Positions 57,361-64,000 of a stretch of 64,000 nucleotides of DNA are shown one piece after another (the stretch's first letter is position 1; every line of letters starts with the position of its first letter). The notes under the pieces are model-generated. The model had not been told where the DNA came from, made no database searches, and saw only the letters and a program-made list of their open reading frames with translations. The position numbers and the translations under genes were made by a program. Source of the stretch: an uncultured Actinomycetes bacterium (GTDB lineage Bacteria; Actinomycetota; CADDZG01; WHSQ01); NCBI GenBank assembly GCA_937863385.1, contig CALMBW010000019.1:62001-126000 (forward strand). Direction: 5' to 3'.

Positions 57361-57756
57361 CTACTTGAGTTCTACGGTTGCTCCTGCGCCTTCGAGCTGA
57401 GCCTTGGCAGCCTCTGCCTGCTCCTTGTTGACCTTCTCGAGAACCGGCTTGGGAGCACCGTCCACGAGGTCCTTGGCCTCCTTGAGGCCAAGGCTTGTCA
57501 GAGAACGGACCTCCTTGATGACTTGGATCTTCTTGTCACCGGCAGCGGTCAGTACGACGTCGAACTCGTCTTGCTCCTCCGCAGCAGCAGCATCTCCACC
57601 AGCGCCTCCGCCGGCGGGGCCTGCGGCAACCGCCACCGGGGCCGCTGCGGAAACCCCGAACTTCTCTTCGAACGCCTTTACGAACTCGGACAGCTCGAGC
57701 ACGGTCCAGTCCGCGATCGCGTCCAGAACCTGATCGTGAGTAAGGGTGTCAGCCAT
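57361..57756 (-). CDS. rplL: 50S ribosomal protein L7/L12
   Basis: A 131-aa stalk protein. The N-terminal dimerisation domain ([19 protein letters not shown]) and an Ala/Gly-rich hinge precede the C-terminal factor-binding domain ([20 protein letters not shown] and [16 protein letters not shown]). It recruits elongation factor GTPases. It is 3 bp downstream of rplJ. Confidence 0.98.
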
Positions 57757-57759
57757 CGA

Positions 57760-58521
57760 TTACTCCTCCTTGCTTTCCTGTTGATCTTCGGATCCATCGG
57801 TTCGGTCTTCCTCGTTAGATTCGGCCTGGGCTTCGGGGGTGTCGCCTTCGGGTGAAGGCTGACCCACTTCCTCGGCTTCAGGTGCCGGTGCTTCGGCCTC
57901 GGCTTCAGGTGCCGGTGCTTCGGCCTCGGCTTCAGGTGCCGGTGCTTCGGCCTCGGCTTCAGGTGCCGGTGCGGCTGGTGCTTCGCCTGCGGGAAGCTCG
58001 CCAGACTCCTTCTTGTCCACGACCTGGACCAACATCGATCCAAGGTCCCTCAGCAGAGCAGCCAAGACGTTGACCGCGAGCTGGGCCGGCTGGTTCATCA
58101 TCATCGCGATCTTGGTCAACAGCACCTCGCGCGATTCCATCTTCGCAAGTGCCTTGGCATCATCCGCCGAGATGGCTTTGCCACCCTTGAGTGCCCCACC
58201 TTTGACCACCAGAACCGGGAACTTCTTTACTGCGTCGTCCAGAGCCTTTGCTGCCTCGACAACATCGCCGCGGATGAAGGCGATCGCAGTAGGGCCGGTG
58301 AGGGTCTCGGCGAGATCCTCATAGCCCACGTCGCGGATCGCGATCTTCACGAGCGTGTTCTTGAGCACCTTGTAGTCGGCGCCGGCGTCGCGCAGGGCGT
58401 TGCGCACCTCTGCGATCTCGGCGACCGTCAGGCCTCGGTACTCGGTAAGGAGGGCAGCGTCAGAGTCCTGGAACCTCGCAGTGATCTCCTGGACCGCTGC
58501 GACCTTCTCGGGTCTCGCCAT
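57760..58521 (-). CDS. rplJ: 50S ribosomal protein L10 with repetitive C-terminal extension
   Basis: A 253-aa L10. The N-terminal ~170 residues are canonical (LLTEYRGLTVAEIAEVRNAL, the YKVLKNTLVKIAIRD segment, TGPTAIAFIRGDVVEAAKAL) and include the helix that binds L12 dimers. They are followed by about 75 residues of Ala/Pro/Glu repeats (PAPEAEAEA) encoded by perfect 27-bp units, then an acidic tail. Typical L10 is about 170 aa. The ATG MARPEKV with AAGGAGAACGT upstream is chosen; the frame upstream is leader. Confidence 0.95.
   Translation of the reverse strand: MARPEKVAAVQEITARFQDSDAALLTEYRGLTVAEIAEVRNALRDAGADYKVLKNTLVKIAIRDVGYEDLAETLTGPTAIAFIRGDVVEAAKALDDAVKKFPVLVVKGGALKGGKAISADDAKALAKMESREVLLTKIAMMMNQPAQLAVNVLAALLRDLGSMLVQVVDKKESGELPAGEAPAAPAPEAEAEAPAPEAEAEAPAPEAEAEAPAPEAEEVGQPSPEGDTPEAQAESNEEDRTDGSEDQQESKEE
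57871..57972 (-). repeat. perfect 27-bp tandem repeats in the rplJ tail
   Basis: The 27-bp unit beginning CTCGGCTTCAGGTGCCGGTG occurs as three identical copies (57871-57951) plus a 21-bp partial fourth. Each encodes nine residues of PAPEAEAEA type. Perfect identity at third positions indicates recent expansion or ongoing homogenisation. Confidence 0.95.
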
Positions 58522-58736
58522 ACGTTCTCCTTGCTTGCCTCGAGCCGGACCTCGGGTCCCTGAGGTGAGGGGCCCCCGGCGCACTACCTCGAACATGAAA
58601 AAAGCGGCCGCCCAGAGGGTCGACCGCATGCGCGTAGCAGTGCAAAGTCTCACCTGCGCCGGATGATTAAGGAGCTAGCCCCCCCGGCGGTCTTGGGCAA
58701 CTGCCACAGGATAACTCAAGGCTCACTGTCGCTGAA
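58522..58736 (-). promoter_or_regulatory. rplJL promoter and leader with attenuator hairpin
   Basis: On the minus strand TTCAGC (58731-58736), a 17-bp spacer and TATCCT (58708-58713) form a plausible promoter overlapping the 3' end of the G8-protein gene. The leader of about 180 nt contains GGCGCAGGTGAGACTTTGCA-like folding sequence. It then has a GCGGTCG...CGGCCGC hairpin followed by six T (58598-58627), which is a convincing intrinsic terminator. This matches the logic of ribosomal L10 leaders, where L10-L12 binding controls transcription or translation. The exact Rfam match is not checked. Confidence 0.6.
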
Positions 58737-61137
58737 CCCTGACTTCTTCCCAGTCCCCATGCCCGAGCAAACGGATACTCAAGGTTCGCGTTGCGGGGTC
58801 GTAGTGATAGGCGGAGTCGTCGGCCGAGGTAAGGCCGGAGAGGGAATCGGCTTCATCAAGAGGCCACCCCCACCTCGTAACCTCGAAGCCCGGACCGATC
58901 TCGATCTTCAGGGTCGTCCAGCGCCCTTTGCCGTTGTAGAGGACGTAACGCGAGCGATCTGGAACCTGCCCGTTGAAAGCCACCGAGTAGACCGAGTTGG
59001 ACAGGATGCTTGTCACGGCGCTGTTGGAATCATCGCAGCACCCGTTGAGGATCTGCTCTTCTCCATCGCTGCGGATGAGGGTCAGGGGCTTGATGTCTTC
59101 CGGCGACGGGGCTGTTACGTAGAGGCTGACATAGTCCTCGGGGCAGACATAGGCGTTCCAAGCTGCGCGATAGCTGCATCGATCGGTCAGAAGGAATGGG
59201 TTGTCGACAACCACTGCACTTCCCGGCGCTCCGGTCACCGATCCATCCACATCAACGAACACCTTGGATAGGTCGCCGTCCATCCCGGGCTCTGGTGAAG
59301 CGAGGTACACCTCGTTCGAATCGACGAACGTCACATCCTCGGCAGCGTTACGCGGGTGGATGGAAAAGGCATCGGGGGTCAGGTAGCCAAGACCGCCGGA
59401 CCGGCGCAAGTCGTTGCTCAAGAAGTTCACGAAAGTGGTGGAACGCGCTCCGACCTTCCCATCGTAGAACTCGAAGCCCACGATCGGGGTCTCTGGCTCC
59501 CAGAAGAACGGCAGCGCCCGCCCTCCGGGGCCGGTGTCCTCCCACTCCTCAACCGTTCCCGGGTTAGCCGTCTCTCCCACAACGAGCGAATCGACCAGCC
59601 AGCTGTCGGATGAAGCGAAGGTCGCCCCCGAGCGGTTGTCGGCGAGTACCGCCCCCGACACCACGTGGTTCGATCCTCGGAGCCACACGCCACGGTCTCT
59701 ATTGAAGTAAGCGGTCAGACCACTGAAGTCGGCAACCACTGGATCGGAGTTTTCGTCTGAGGGATCCGCCACCGGGGCATACCAGGTTGCTTCGGTAGTG
59801 CCGTTGGGGCGAGGTCCGTGATCTACGTTCAGACCGACATCACCATTGCTATGGGCAACATTGCCGGTGAAAGCACCAAGCGGCGTGCGGCGCGGCCAGA
59901 TGGAGTCACTCTCAGATAGCCCTGTTGGGTGTTCGGGCAATGCGTACCAGAAGCCGATGCCTTCGGACCCTGCTGCAACGTTGTTACGGACGATGTTGTC
60001 GGGATTCGTGATCCAGAAGGTCGCAGCCCTTCGGTCTGACGGGAGGAGGCCGTCGTCGACCGACCGCGTTCCCAAGCCCAGGTTCCCAGTGATGATGTTG
60101 TCTGTCTCGGCTCCATCCTCTAAGAAGAACCCGTGACCCACGTGATCGAAGCAAACGTTGTTCTGTATCCGGAGACCGCTCGTTCCATGAACGGTCACGC
60201 ATCGATTCGAACTGTCGTGGATCGAGGACCGCTTGAGGTATGACTCGGGTGCGCGCCCATCCATATGGAAGTGGACGGGATAGCGGCGCAGGATGTTTCG
60301 CTGCCCCACATTGCTGAACTCGACGCCGTCGATCCGCGCCTCACCACTTTCCATCACCATGAGATGGGCACCAAACCCGCCATCACTACCAGCCTCTGCA
60401 CCCCTGATGACTATGTTGCGGGACAGAAGACCGACCTCGGCCCGTTCGTCAACCGTGCGGCCGGCGAAACTCTGCAGCTCTCCCCAGTGCATCCTTTCAA
60501 GGGGCCTATCCAGTTCGACGGTCGTAGGCGTTACCGCCGTGATGGTACGCACCTCGTCGTGTTGGCTCCAGTACGAACTGGAGGCAATAACGATCCGGTC
60601 ACCTCGCTTCCAACCCTTCTTGCGTTCCAGCTGCAACGTGGAATCGCCGCGTTGAACGGTCGACGTTAGACGTGTCCAGCCCTTGATCTTGCGGCCGTGA
60701 AGCTCGAGTGTCCCACCCATAACTCCGATGAACCGAGTGCCCATGTCCATGATGTTTTCTGAGCCTTTGGCTCCCGTCAGCGTGATGACGGCTCGGCTGC
60801 GGAAGGGTTGGGTTTCGCTTCCGACCCTGAGCGCACCGTGGACCATGATCCAGTCGGCGGTCAACGAAAGCCTCTTCTCGGCGAACTCCAGCGCGCCATC
60901 GATCTGCAAACCACCCAGCGACGGTGTATCGACATCCAACAAGACGGTAGTCCCACTAGGGATGCGGACGTCGTCTCCGGGACCGGGCAGCGAGCCGCCC
61001 CAGGTTGCCGGGTCGGACCACGCCTGACTCCCCTGCGCGATGCGGGCGACCTTGGGCGCGCTTGCCCTCGCCGGATAGATGAGTTGGATCGAAACACACG
61101 CGCTCAGCGCAACCAGAGCGCATAACCGCCGCAGCAA
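58723..61137 (-). CDS. secreted G8-domain / CEMIP-like right-handed beta-helix protein
   Basis: An 804-aa exported protein. TTG 61137 follows GGGAGGGG and opens a signal peptide (LLRRLCALVALSACVSIQLI, cleavage near PARASA). A G8 domain follows (about 30-160): SDPATWGGSLPGPGDDVRIP and VDTPSLGGLQIDGALEF. The rest is a parallel beta-helix of CEMIP/TMEM2/PKHD1L1 type: RYPVHFHMDG, SIHDSSNRCVTVHGT, NVCFDHVGHGFFLEDGAET and NLGLGTRSVD. In animals, related proteins take part in hyaluronan breakdown. Here a carbohydrate-binding or lyase role on the cell surface is only inference. An ATG at 61188 lacks a ribosome site. It separates rplA from rplJ. Confidence 0.85.
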   Translation of the reverse strand: MLRRLCALVALSACVSIQLIYPARASAPKVARIAQGSQAWSDPATWGGSLPGPGDDVRIPSGTTVLLDVDTPSLGGLQIDGALEFAEKRLSLTADWIMVHGALRVGSETQPFRSRAVITLTGAKGSENIMDMGTRFIGVMGGTLELHGRKIKGWTRLTSTVQRGDSTLQLERKKGWKRGDRIVIASSSYWSQHDEVRTITAVTPTTVELDRPLERMHWGELQSFAGRTVDERAEVGLLSRNIVIRGAEAGSDGGFGAHLMVMESGEARIDGVEFSNVGQRNILRRYPVHFHMDGRAPESYLKRSSIHDSSNRCVTVHGTSGLRIQNNVCFDHVGHGFFLEDGAETDNIITGNLGLGTRSVDDGLLPSDRRAATFWITNPDNIVRNNVAAGSEGIGFWYALPEHPTGLSESDSIWPRRTPLGAFTGNVAHSNGDVGLNVDHGPRPNGTTEATWYAPVADPSDENSDPVVADFSGLTAYFNRDRGVWLRGSNHVVSGAVLADNRSGATFASSDSWLVDSLVVGETANPGTVEEWEDTGPGGRALPFFWEPETPIVGFEFYDGKVGARSTTFVNFLSNDLRRSGGLGYLTPDAFSIHPRNAAEDVTFVDSNEVYLASPEPGMDGDLSKVFVDVDGSVTGAPGSAVVVDNPFLLTDRCSYRAAWNAYVCPEDYVSLYVTAPSPEDIKPLTLIRSDGEEQILNGCCDDSNSAVTSILSNSVYSVAFNGQVPDRSRYVLYNGKGRWTTLKIEIGPGFEVTRWGWPLDEADSLSGLTSADDSAYHYDPATRTLSIRLLGHGDWEEVRVQRQ

Positions 61138-61291
61138 AGACCCCTCCCTTGGCACGCGTGTACTGCAACCATCATCAGCATCGGCCACTTCTGCATTTTC
61201 CTAAAGGGGTTCGAGCAGCTTGCTTCCAAGGGAGTCTTTCGTCATACTGACCCCTCGTCCGGTCGTTTCCCCGGACCGAAAGGAGCGTTCG

Positions 61292-61321
61292 ATGATGATC
61301 TATGGAGGTTTCTTCATCTAG
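61292..61321 (+). CDS. nine-codon leader peptide upstream of rsgA
   Basis: AAAGGAGCG lies six bases before ATG ATG ATC TAT GGA GGT TTC TTC ATC TAG, encoding MMIYGGFFI. The ribosome site is among the best in the region, which is hard to explain for a random nine-codon frame. Short hydrophobic peptides of this type are used as drug- or metabolite-sensing stallers upstream of ribosome-protection and methylase genes in other bacteria. Here the function is inferred from position only. Confidence 0.5.
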   Translation: MMIYGGFFI

Positions 61322-61485
61322 GCCCGGCTGGGTCCGCTCCTTTTCTTCCTCGTTCCTCCGTACCATCTCTAAAGGACAGGCGTACGCCGGGCACCGTAGG
61401 TGCCGTCGCGCGCGTTCGATCGTCGCCGTTTGCCGGCGGTCACCTACCCCGATCAGGACCCCGAGGTCCTCACAAGGAGGTAGTG

Positions 61486-61665
61486 ATGCTTGTTCTCGAT
61501 CAGTTTGAAATGTGTTCCGGCGCCCGATCCGGGATCGCCGTGCATCTAGAACCCCAAGTCCCCCAGCCTGAGGAGCAGCGATATCAGCACGCTCCTGCCC
61601 CTCCGGCGCCCTGCCGCTTCGAGCCTCGGTGGTTGCATCCCGAGGTCTCCGACAGGCACCCTTAG
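61486..61665 (+). CDS. 59-aa upstream ORF preceding rsgA
   Basis: A perfect AAGGAGGT (61474-61481) precedes ATG 61486 (a GTG directly before it is also in frame). The peptide starts MLVLDQFEMCSGARSGIAVH, is rich in Pro, Glu and Arg, and has no TM segment or motif I recognise. Its stop lies five bases before the rsgA Shine-Dalgarno and 17 bases before the rsgA start, so translation may be coupled. It could be a regulatory ORF or a genuine small protein. Confidence 0.45.
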   Translation: MLVLDQFEMCSGARSGIAVHLEPQVPQPEEQRYQHAPAPPAPCRFEPRWLHPEVSDRHP

Positions 61666-61682
61666 AGATGGAGGTAAGTGGA

Positions 61683-62756
61683 TTGAACCTAGAAGAGCTT
61701 GGCTGGAGCGAGTGGTTCCAGTCGCATCTAGAAGAGTTGGGCGATGGAAACTCCGTACCCGGGCGCGTGGCCGTGGAGCATCGGCGCGGCTACACAGTCC
61801 TGGTGCCGTCCGATGCCCACGCTGACGGAGAGATCGAAGCGGATGTCCCCGGCAGGATGCGCAAAGAGGCGCAGCTCAGCTCTGACCTGCCGGCCGTTGG
61901 CGACTGGGTGCTCGTTAGGTTGCTGGGAAACGAATCCCGTGGGGTCATCGAGGCGATCTTGCCGCGACGCTCGAAGTTCTCGCGCAAAGTAGCCGGCTTC
62001 GAGGTCGACGAACAGGTCGTCGCCAGCAACGTCGATCACCTGTTCCTCGTCTCATCGCTCGACCTCGACCTCAACCTGCGGCGGATCGAGCGGTATCTGA
62101 CCCTAGCGTGGGATAGCGGAGCACAACCGGTTGTGATCCTTACCAAGTCCGATCTTCACGACAACGTCGAGCAAGCGATCGCGGATGTAAGCGAAGTGGC
62201 CCCCGGTGTCGACGTGCACGCGATCAGCAGCGTGTCGGGTGACGGGTACGACGCTCTCGAGCGGTATCTCACAGGTTCCACGATCGCCGTTATGGGGTCG
62301 TCCGGTGTCGGAAAGTCAACCTTGATAAACCATCTTCGAGGCGACGAGCAGATGAAAGTCGCCGACATCCGTTGGGATGGCAAGGGTCGGCACACGACGA
62401 CGCATCGGGAGTTGCTGCGTCTGCCCCAAGGGGGGTGGATCATCGACACGCCGGGGATGCGGGAGCTACAGCTGTGGGATGCGTCGGAAGGCCTCGAGGC
62501 AGCATTCTCAGACATCGCCCAACTCGCGACGGCGTGCAAGTTCAGCGATTGCGAACACGAAACCGAGCCCGGGTGCGCGGTGAAGCAAGCGATCCAAAAC
62601 AAGGAACTAGACCCCGCCCGCTTGGAGAGTTACCGCAAACAACTCAGAGAGATGGCAGCTCTGGCTCGCAAGTTGGACAAACGCCTGGCCAACGCCGAAG
62701 CGAAGAGGTGGAAACAACTGAACAAGGATGCACGCGCAAGGGCCCGGCTGCGATAG
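61683..62756 (+). CDS. rsgA: ribosome small-subunit-dependent GTPase RsgA
   Basis: A 357-aa circularly permuted GTPase that acts late in 30S maturation. An N-terminal OB-fold region (VGDWVLVRL) precedes G4 TKSD, then G1 MGSSGVGKSTLINHL, G3 DTPGMRE, and a C-terminal zinc motif CKFSDCEHETEPGC. It belongs to the longer RsgA subtype that begins NLEELGWSEWF. TTG 61683 is chosen because GGAGGT lies seven bases upstream; ATG 61668 would place that site inside the gene. It is preceded by an unusually long leader with two ORFs. It interrupts the rplA-rplJ order on the opposite strand. Confidence 0.93.
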   Translation: MNLEELGWSEWFQSHLEELGDGNSVPGRVAVEHRRGYTVLVPSDAHADGEIEADVPGRMRKEAQLSSDLPAVGDWVLVRLLGNESRGVIEAILPRRSKFSRKVAGFEVDEQVVASNVDHLFLVSSLDLDLNLRRIERYLTLAWDSGAQPVVILTKSDLHDNVEQAIADVSEVAPGVDVHAISSVSGDGYDALERYLTGSTIAVMGSSGVGKSTLINHLRGDEQMKVADIRWDGKGRHTTTHRELLRLPQGGWIIDTPGMRELQLWDASEGLEAAFSDIAQLATACKFSDCEHETEPGCAVKQAIQNKELDPARLESYRKQLREMAALARKLDKRLANAEAKRWKQLNKDARARARLR

Positions 62757-62792: not shown

Positions 62793-63512
62793 CTAGCCGG
62801 CGGAGGCCTCGTCCGACAGCTCTTTCGCCTTGCTGGTATCGATCCGAACTCCAGGACCCATAGTCGTGGAGAGCGACATCGACTTCAGGTACCGGCCTTT
62901 GGCGGCTGCCGGCTTGGCTCGGATCACCTCGTCGACGATAGCTGCGTAGTTCTCAACTAGGTCGGCGGGATCGAACGACTTCTTGCCGATGATCAGGTGG
63001 AGGTTGCCGTTCTTGTCGGTGCGGTACTCGATCATTCCGCCTTTGATGTCACGCACGACCTTCGCTACATCCTCGGTGACCGTTCCCGACTTGGGGTTGG
63101 GCATGAGACCGCGGGGGCCGAGCACCCGTCCGAGCTTTCCGACCGTTGGCATCATGTCGGGTGTAGCAACGACTGCATCGAAGTCCAAGAACCCACCGGA
63201 TACCCGCTCGGCCAGATCGTCATCCCCGACGACGTCCGCCCCGGCGGCCTCGGCGTCCTTGGCCTTCTCGCCCTTCGCGAACACCGCAACCCTCATCGTC
63301 TTACCGGTGCCCTTGGGCAGGGTGATGGCACCGCGGACCATCTGGTCGGGCTTGCGGGGATCGACCCCCAGCCTGATGCTCAATTCGACCGTCTCGTCGA
63401 ACTTCGCGCTGGGGAACTCTTTCAGGATCTTGATGGCGTCCAGTGGCCCATACAACTTGTCGCGGTCAACGCTCTTAAGCGCCTCCGCGAAACGCTTACC
63501 GGTCTTCGGCAT
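62793..63512 (-). CDS. rplA: 50S ribosomal protein L1
   Basis: A 239-aa L1 stalk protein: [20 protein letters not shown], then [21 protein letters not shown], the [20 protein letters not shown] rRNA-binding motif, the [16 protein letters not shown] segment and the [18 protein letters not shown] end. Of two ATGs, the second (MPKTGKR) is chosen because AGGAGG is then eight bases away. L1 is a classical translational repressor of the rplKA operon. The usual next genes, rplJL, are displaced by about 4.3 kb. Confidence 0.96.
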
Positions 63513-63609
63513 CTCCATCTCCTCCTCGTGGTCTGCGACGGGTTGCCCCGTCTCCCACTAACTAGGCCGGCCCTGGTGCAAGTGCGTCCAGGGTGTTGCT
63601 CTGCGACTC

Positions 63610-64000
63610 CTACTTGACGGTGATCCCCATGCTACGAGCGGTCCCTTCGATGATCTTCATCGCTGCGTCCACGTCGTTCGCGTTCAGGTCTGGCATCTTG
63701 ACCTCGGCGATCTCCCGCACCTGATCCTTGGTTACCGACCCAACCTTCGCGCTGTTGGGCGTACCCGATCCTTTGTCAAGGCCCGCCTTCTGCTTGAGAA
63801 GGACTGCCGCAGGCGGAGTCTTGGTGATGAACGAGAAGGAGCGGTCCTCGTACACCGTGATCTCCACGGGCACGACCGTCCCGGTCTGAGCTTGCGTAGC
63901 AGCGTTGTACTGCTTGCAGAACTCCATGATGTTGATGCCGGCTTGACCTAGCGCCGGGCCGACCGGAGGTGCAGGGGTGGCCTGACCGCCAACGATCTGC
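63610..64000 (-). CDS. rplK: 50S ribosomal protein L11, N-terminus cut by the right window edge
   Basis: The visible 130 codons begin in [20 protein letters not shown] (the N-terminal factor-binding domain) and continue with [40 protein letters not shown] and the rRNA-binding C-terminal domain [20 protein letters not shown]. Only about 10-12 N-terminal residues should be missing. The Pro-rich loop that binds thiopeptides looks wild type. It is 97 bp upstream of rplA. Confidence 0.97.

Follow-up and report, generated by a model that had tools for sequence, protein, structure and literature searches.

A short Shine-Dalgarno-led reading frame upstream of rsgA in Actinomycetota as a candidate ribosome-responsive leader

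The rsgA locus and the parts of its leader

The window, i.e. the whole 64,000-nucleotide stretch of actinomycete DNA analysed here, carries on its forward strand a gene for the 30S-maturation GTPase RsgA (61683-62756; Pfam PF03193 RsgA_GTPase, E 3.5e-52), which starts with the TTG codon at 61683; a TTG is the best-placed rsgA start in most relatives as well. RsgA checks late steps of 30S assembly. Together with a divergent neighbour on the reverse strand (58723-61188), which harbors G8 and CEMIP beta-helix domains, rsgA is located between rplJ-rplL (57361-58653) and rplK-rplA (62793-63999), the usual ribosomal-protein cluster being split by these two genes.

All leader elements are located on the forward strand. 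The first of them is a promoter-like pair of hexamers, TTGCTT (61220-61225) and CATACT (61243-61248), separated by 17 nucleotides. Both hexamers and their spacing, as given in the preliminary description of this DNA, can be read directly, but the pair stays below the threshold of a sigma-70 promoter scan. An early stem GTCCGG/CCGGAC (61257-61276), predicted in the minimum free energy (MFE) fold and in the centroid fold, lies between the promoter-like pair and the first upstream open reading frame (uORF), ORF1. The latter starts with the ATG at 61292, 49 nucleotides from CATACT, behind the Shine-Dalgarno (SD) sequence AAAGGAGCG (61279-61287), and encodes MMIYGGFFI followed by the stop codon TAG (61319-61321). 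Past this stop, the segment CGCTCCTTTT (61335-61344) is the complement of the ORF1 SD, found by a complement test and in the MFE fold, and CCATCTCTAA (61363-61372) is the complement of the rsgA ribosome-binding region, found by a duplex test and likewise in the MFE fold. The ribosome-binding region itself, TTAGAGATGGAGGT (61662-61675), contains the rsgA SD GGAGGT at 61670-61675 and was read directly as well as recovered in the duplex test.

A second frame, ORF2 (61486-61665, 59 amino acids), is preceded by the perfect SD AAGGAGGT (61474-61481; whole element 61474-61665), and rsgA follows behind GGAGGT. Both frames and the ribosome-binding sites had been correctly placed by the preliminary description, and its identification of rsgA is borne out by the Pfam match. 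ORF2 itself has no Pfam match, and no homologue is found in 16 genomes of the family, on which grounds ORF2 was rejected as a conserved uORF or small protein. It looks lineage-specific as judged from these genomes and may be a second uORF or nothing. The distance between the -10-like hexamer and the uORF amounts to 46-53 nucleotides in the five relatives with a detectable hexamer (L006, L007, L011, L027 and L029); because ORF1 lies at the same distance, ORF1 and not ORF2 is regarded as the positional counterpart of the uORFs of relatives.

Conservation of the frame in the family and across the phylum

The window genome is the sole genome of its genus and the comparison of ORF1 thus rests on the family, not on close relatives; RsgA identity between the window genome and the other family members is 50-54%. 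The search located rsgA in 12 family genomes, and in every one of them an SD-led frame of 9-17 codons precedes it. Nine of them pass the strict threshold of a six-base SD match, the remaining G007, G012 and G014 having GGAGG only. Examples of the encoded peptides are MTNPECPCRGSAAS, MTKRSAVFSRRPEAR, MTRGPEGRAI and MHTVTSATPPGRELS. In another family of the same class the uORF is present at two of three rsgA loci (MHAAVSSARC and MKPAVSLLRC). The third locus, L028, is a natural uORF loss, which retains the TATACT promoter-like hexamer as well as a CCTCGT/ACGAGG pair around the rsgA SD. A search of plasmids for direct DNA similarity to the window gave no match.

Altogether about 170 other rsgA upstream regions were compared, a Vibrio locus, the sole yield of one contig scan for RsgA, being excluded. 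For the phylum, a search of 396 genomes provided 121 rsgA upstream regions, which were read for frames that comprise 6-35 codons and follow an SD match six or more nucleotides long. Such a frame is present in 51 of them, compared with 4.8 in dinucleotide-keeping shuffles and 5 on the reverse strand; some few of the 51 must be chance frames. In the families f22 and f25 the uORF is found in none of 13 regions each. As a control within the window's own contig (287 kb), the 122 genes with at least 110 nucleotides upstream were inspected and the frame was found at two of them, one being rsgA, i.e. at 1 of 121 other genes. At rsgA the first-listed frame of this control arises by chance, in phase, within the SD of ORF2; ORF1 passes too. 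On an RsgA tree of 39 rows uORF presence requires 4 changes, where shuffles require 12.3 (0 of 500), a clustering that matches the expectation for an old feature.

On these counts the presence of the uORF, its strong SD and its position are shown to be kept far beyond chance, and the genome comparison shows the SD-led short frame to be, as far as sequence data reach, an old and widely kept feature of rsgA genes in Actinomycetota. ORF1, reported in the preliminary description behind AAAGGAGCG, is consequently no chance frame, given its retention in the family, the enrichment in the phylum and the contig control. A lack of conservation among relatives, which would have spoken against the leader, is not what is seen: ORF2 has no homologue in the 16 family genomes, but the SD-led frame in the position of ORF1 is kept in 12 of 12 family genomes and in many families of the phylum. 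Ribosome-mediated attenuation leaders are recognized by a short ORF with its own ribosome-binding site conserved beyond chance, and such an ORF is found here.

A peptide motif shared by the families was sought and rejected, the peptides being unrelated (MMIYGGFFI, MTNPECPCRGSAAS, MTKRSAVFSRRPEAR and others). Two loci from two further families, L046 and L050, carry upstream of rsgA a near-identical frame of 14 codons, MTSAGVSRTNLKR[IS], behind AAGGAG.

Nucleotide-level constraint and base pairing in the leader

In Streptomyces, leader-type rsgA was found in 59 of the 61 genomes searched, and 54 clean leaders encode M[AT]V..xGAARIQ......T[SP]V[AV]xG. Start, SD and stop of the uORF are kept in these 54 leaders and its length varies in steps of three only. 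The uORF displays a pS of 0.17 and a pN of 0.28, compared with 0.43 and 0.15 for rsgA in the same genomes, and rare codons are fixed, with GCT making up 32 of 33 alanine codons at uORF position 2 versus 3% of the alanine codons of rsgA. Silent sites that are more constrained than amino-acid sites, together with fixed rare codons, are the mark of a constraint on the RNA. At the level of substitution patterns the Streptomyces uORF is thereby shown to be under nucleotide-level constraint, the peptide not being the conserved part. Segments downstream of the uORF are conserved as well.

For 11 Streptomyces leaders RNAalifold predicts three helices: the uORF SD GGAGGTG pairs with CACCTCC inside the uORF, GTGGCCnCCGGC at the uORF end pairs with GCCGGGGCC (the middle helix), and the rsgA SD AAGGG pairs with CCCTT at the rsgA start. 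When all 54 leaders are used, these helices reappear in part and the covariation term is weak. By direct count, 96% of the cells of the middle helix are paired, with few double changes; the covariation of helix H1 is present but modest (few double changes, 105 of 2000 partner shuffles).

The fold of the 452-nucleotide leader of the window is little better than that of shuffles (z -1.65, 4 of 100), so that the three compact hairpins named in the preliminary description are predicted but lack individual support; the early stem named there can be read in the sequence. Within the window, TTAGAGATGG (61662-61671), which extends into the rsgA SD, and CCATCTCTAA (61363-61372) are perfect complements; 17 of 500 shuffles gave a duplex of the same or better energy. 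The ORF1 SD, extended by the preceding G, is complementary over 10 bp to 61335-61344 (p 0.07 when taken singly). Such pairings are individually weak in single genomes (p 0.03-0.4 in the window). Pooling gave Fisher p 0.0015 for the uORF SD and a segment further downstream (48 leaders), p 0.005 for the end of the uORF and a segment ahead of rsgA (34 non-Streptomyces leaders) and Fisher p 0.003 for the rsgA ribosome-binding site and a segment earlier in the leader (32 non-Streptomyces leaders). All of these values are optimistic, given that single bases were shuffled, that the loci lack full independence and that three pairing schemes were compared.

A single RNA structure common to all families was rejected, since individual folds differ and the helices do not sit at the same places from family to family. 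Across 48 loci, local hairpins ahead of the rsgA SD show just a slight enrichment (mean z -0.77). At locus L004 a perfect hairpin of 15 bp lies within the first codons of rsgA. One weak terminator-like site is located just past ORF1 (61321-61334), and U-tract terminators beyond chance are not recognizable in the window region (2 found versus 1.3 in shuffles). No known cis-regulatory family of Rfam is matched at gathering score, neither by the window (E-value mode) nor by the loci of 12 relatives.

A putative ribosome sensor and related leaders

Of the two RsgA genes of S. coelicolor, SCO6149 is a tetracycline-inducible member of the WblC/WhiB7 regulon, activated by WblC, whereas SCO5211 is not (PMC7157823). 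The leader-bearing Streptomyces paralogue is preceded by a GAAAWY-like element, the published WblC signature, before its -35 hexamer; the other paralogue in genome G044 lies directly behind aroA, and this inspected aroA-linked copy is devoid of such a leader. From this element, the published regulon split and the aroA linkage of the other copy we infer orthology of the leader-bearing paralogue with SCO6149. WblC itself accounts for at least part of the induction of SCO6149. By eye, no WblC/WhiB7 site is seen before TTGCTT in the window, and none of the four WhiB proteins of the window genome has an obvious WhiB7-type AT-hook tail.

The rsgA leader is probably a cis-regulatory element in which the short, strongly initiated ORF1 serves as ribosome sensor, as suggested by its conservation. 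Between the uORF and rsgA, the mRNA would adopt alternative helices in which the uORF SD, the end of the uORF and the ribosome-binding region of rsgA take part; in the window this ribosome-binding region would be paired with the segment that lies 41 nucleotides beyond the stop of ORF1. Where a ribosome stands on the uORF, be it initiating, stalled or terminating, would decide among these helices, which in turn would mask or expose the start of rsgA or end transcription, and so set rsgA expression; control could thus act either on rsgA translation or through early transcription termination. The likely outcome would be a rise in RsgA upon impaired initiation or elongation, and the quantity sensed would be ribosome occupancy instead of a specific nascent-peptide motif. 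Only tentatively can it be proposed that an ancient leader of Actinomycetota makes synthesis of the 30S-maturation GTPase respond to ribosome occupancy via information at the RNA level and not at the peptide level, and equally tentative is the part of this proposal which has the leader retained through the divergence of many families and on both sides of an rsgA duplication.

The uORF might instead be constitutive, loading ribosomes that protect the transcript or limiting rsgA translation by a fixed amount, without any sensing. The free peptide sequence and the variation of the helices among families agree with such a role, and the weak TTG start of rsgA fits a low fixed output; it is nevertheless rather unlikely, as the silent-site constraint over the Streptomyces leader and the conserved downstream segments exceed what a mere loading site needs and the gene is drug-induced in Streptomyces (PMC7157823). 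That ORF2 and not ORF1 is the working uORF of the window genome, coupling translation by termination 18 nucleotides before the rsgA start, is improbable: its perfect AAGGAGGT and its stop just before the rsgA SD would suit this role, but it comprises 59 codons versus 9-30 elsewhere, is without homologue, and the spacing to the promoter-like hexamer seen in relatives belongs to ORF1.

Very improbable is a classic drug-sensing leader peptide of the erm/cat kind, named as a known parallel in the preliminary description, whose specific nascent sequence stalls the ribosome together with the drug. A strong SD, a short ORF with hairpins after it and the conserved T-[SP]-V-x-x-G end of the Streptomyces peptides recall such leaders; on the other hand, the peptides differ freely with no motif common to the families, amino-acid sites in Streptomyces are less conserved than silent sites, and the TSV segment falls on CACCTCC, the predicted pairing partner of the uORF SD. 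Since the peptide is not the conserved part and ORF2 has no homologue, the stalling-peptide idea is unsupported. The suggested link to ribosome-targeting drugs, by contrast, is independently backed by the tetracycline induction of SCO6149 (PMC7157823) and by the GAAAWY-like element of the leader-bearing Streptomyces paralogue.

If the ribosome-sensing reading is true, a uORF leader on rsgA would tie small-subunit quality control directly to translation status, and it would account for the retention in Streptomyces of a drug-induced rsgA in addition to the aroA-linked copy. SCO6149 of the laboratory strain S. coelicolor offers a tractable leader of this type, and the roughly 170 upstream regions offer a conserved set for comparison. 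The open-access literature yielded no report of rsgA with a leader peptide in Streptomyces, and rsgA occurs with a uORF only in PMC7157823, where the uORF is that of wblC. In agreement with the preliminary description, no earlier account of an rsgA uORF leader was found in the open-access literature or Rfam, and its novelty is provisional.

Comparable uORF leaders are established for resistance and rescue genes. In ermC-type translational attenuators the ribosome-binding site of the target is held in a helix behind a leader ORF with a strong SD; leader ORF and strong SD are common to both systems, while the rsgA leader is without a conserved stalling peptide. The rli80 leader of hflXr (lmo0762) in Listeria likewise places a short ORF in a structured leader before the gene of a ribosome-associated GTPase, and exerts ribosome-dependent control in answer to translation inhibitors via transcription termination and an RLR stalling motif (PMC6310831). 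By comparison, the rsgA leader, a candidate defined by sequence, precedes a different GTPase and has no clear terminator or shared stall motif. In the are5scL and tiaAL leaders of Streptomyces ABC-F genes the uORF overlaps alternative RNA structures before a ribosome-protection gene; gene and peptides differ from those at rsgA, and the terminator/antiterminator folds and toeprints belong to those leaders (PMC12421871). The whiB7/wblC uORF of Actinomycetota is tied to translation stress, and the Streptomyces rsgA paralogue is part of the same regulon (PMC7157823, PMC12121999). Unlike whiB7, which encodes a regulator, the rsgA leader precedes an effector gene, and it also occurs in lineages that have only one rsgA and in which no WblC site is visible.
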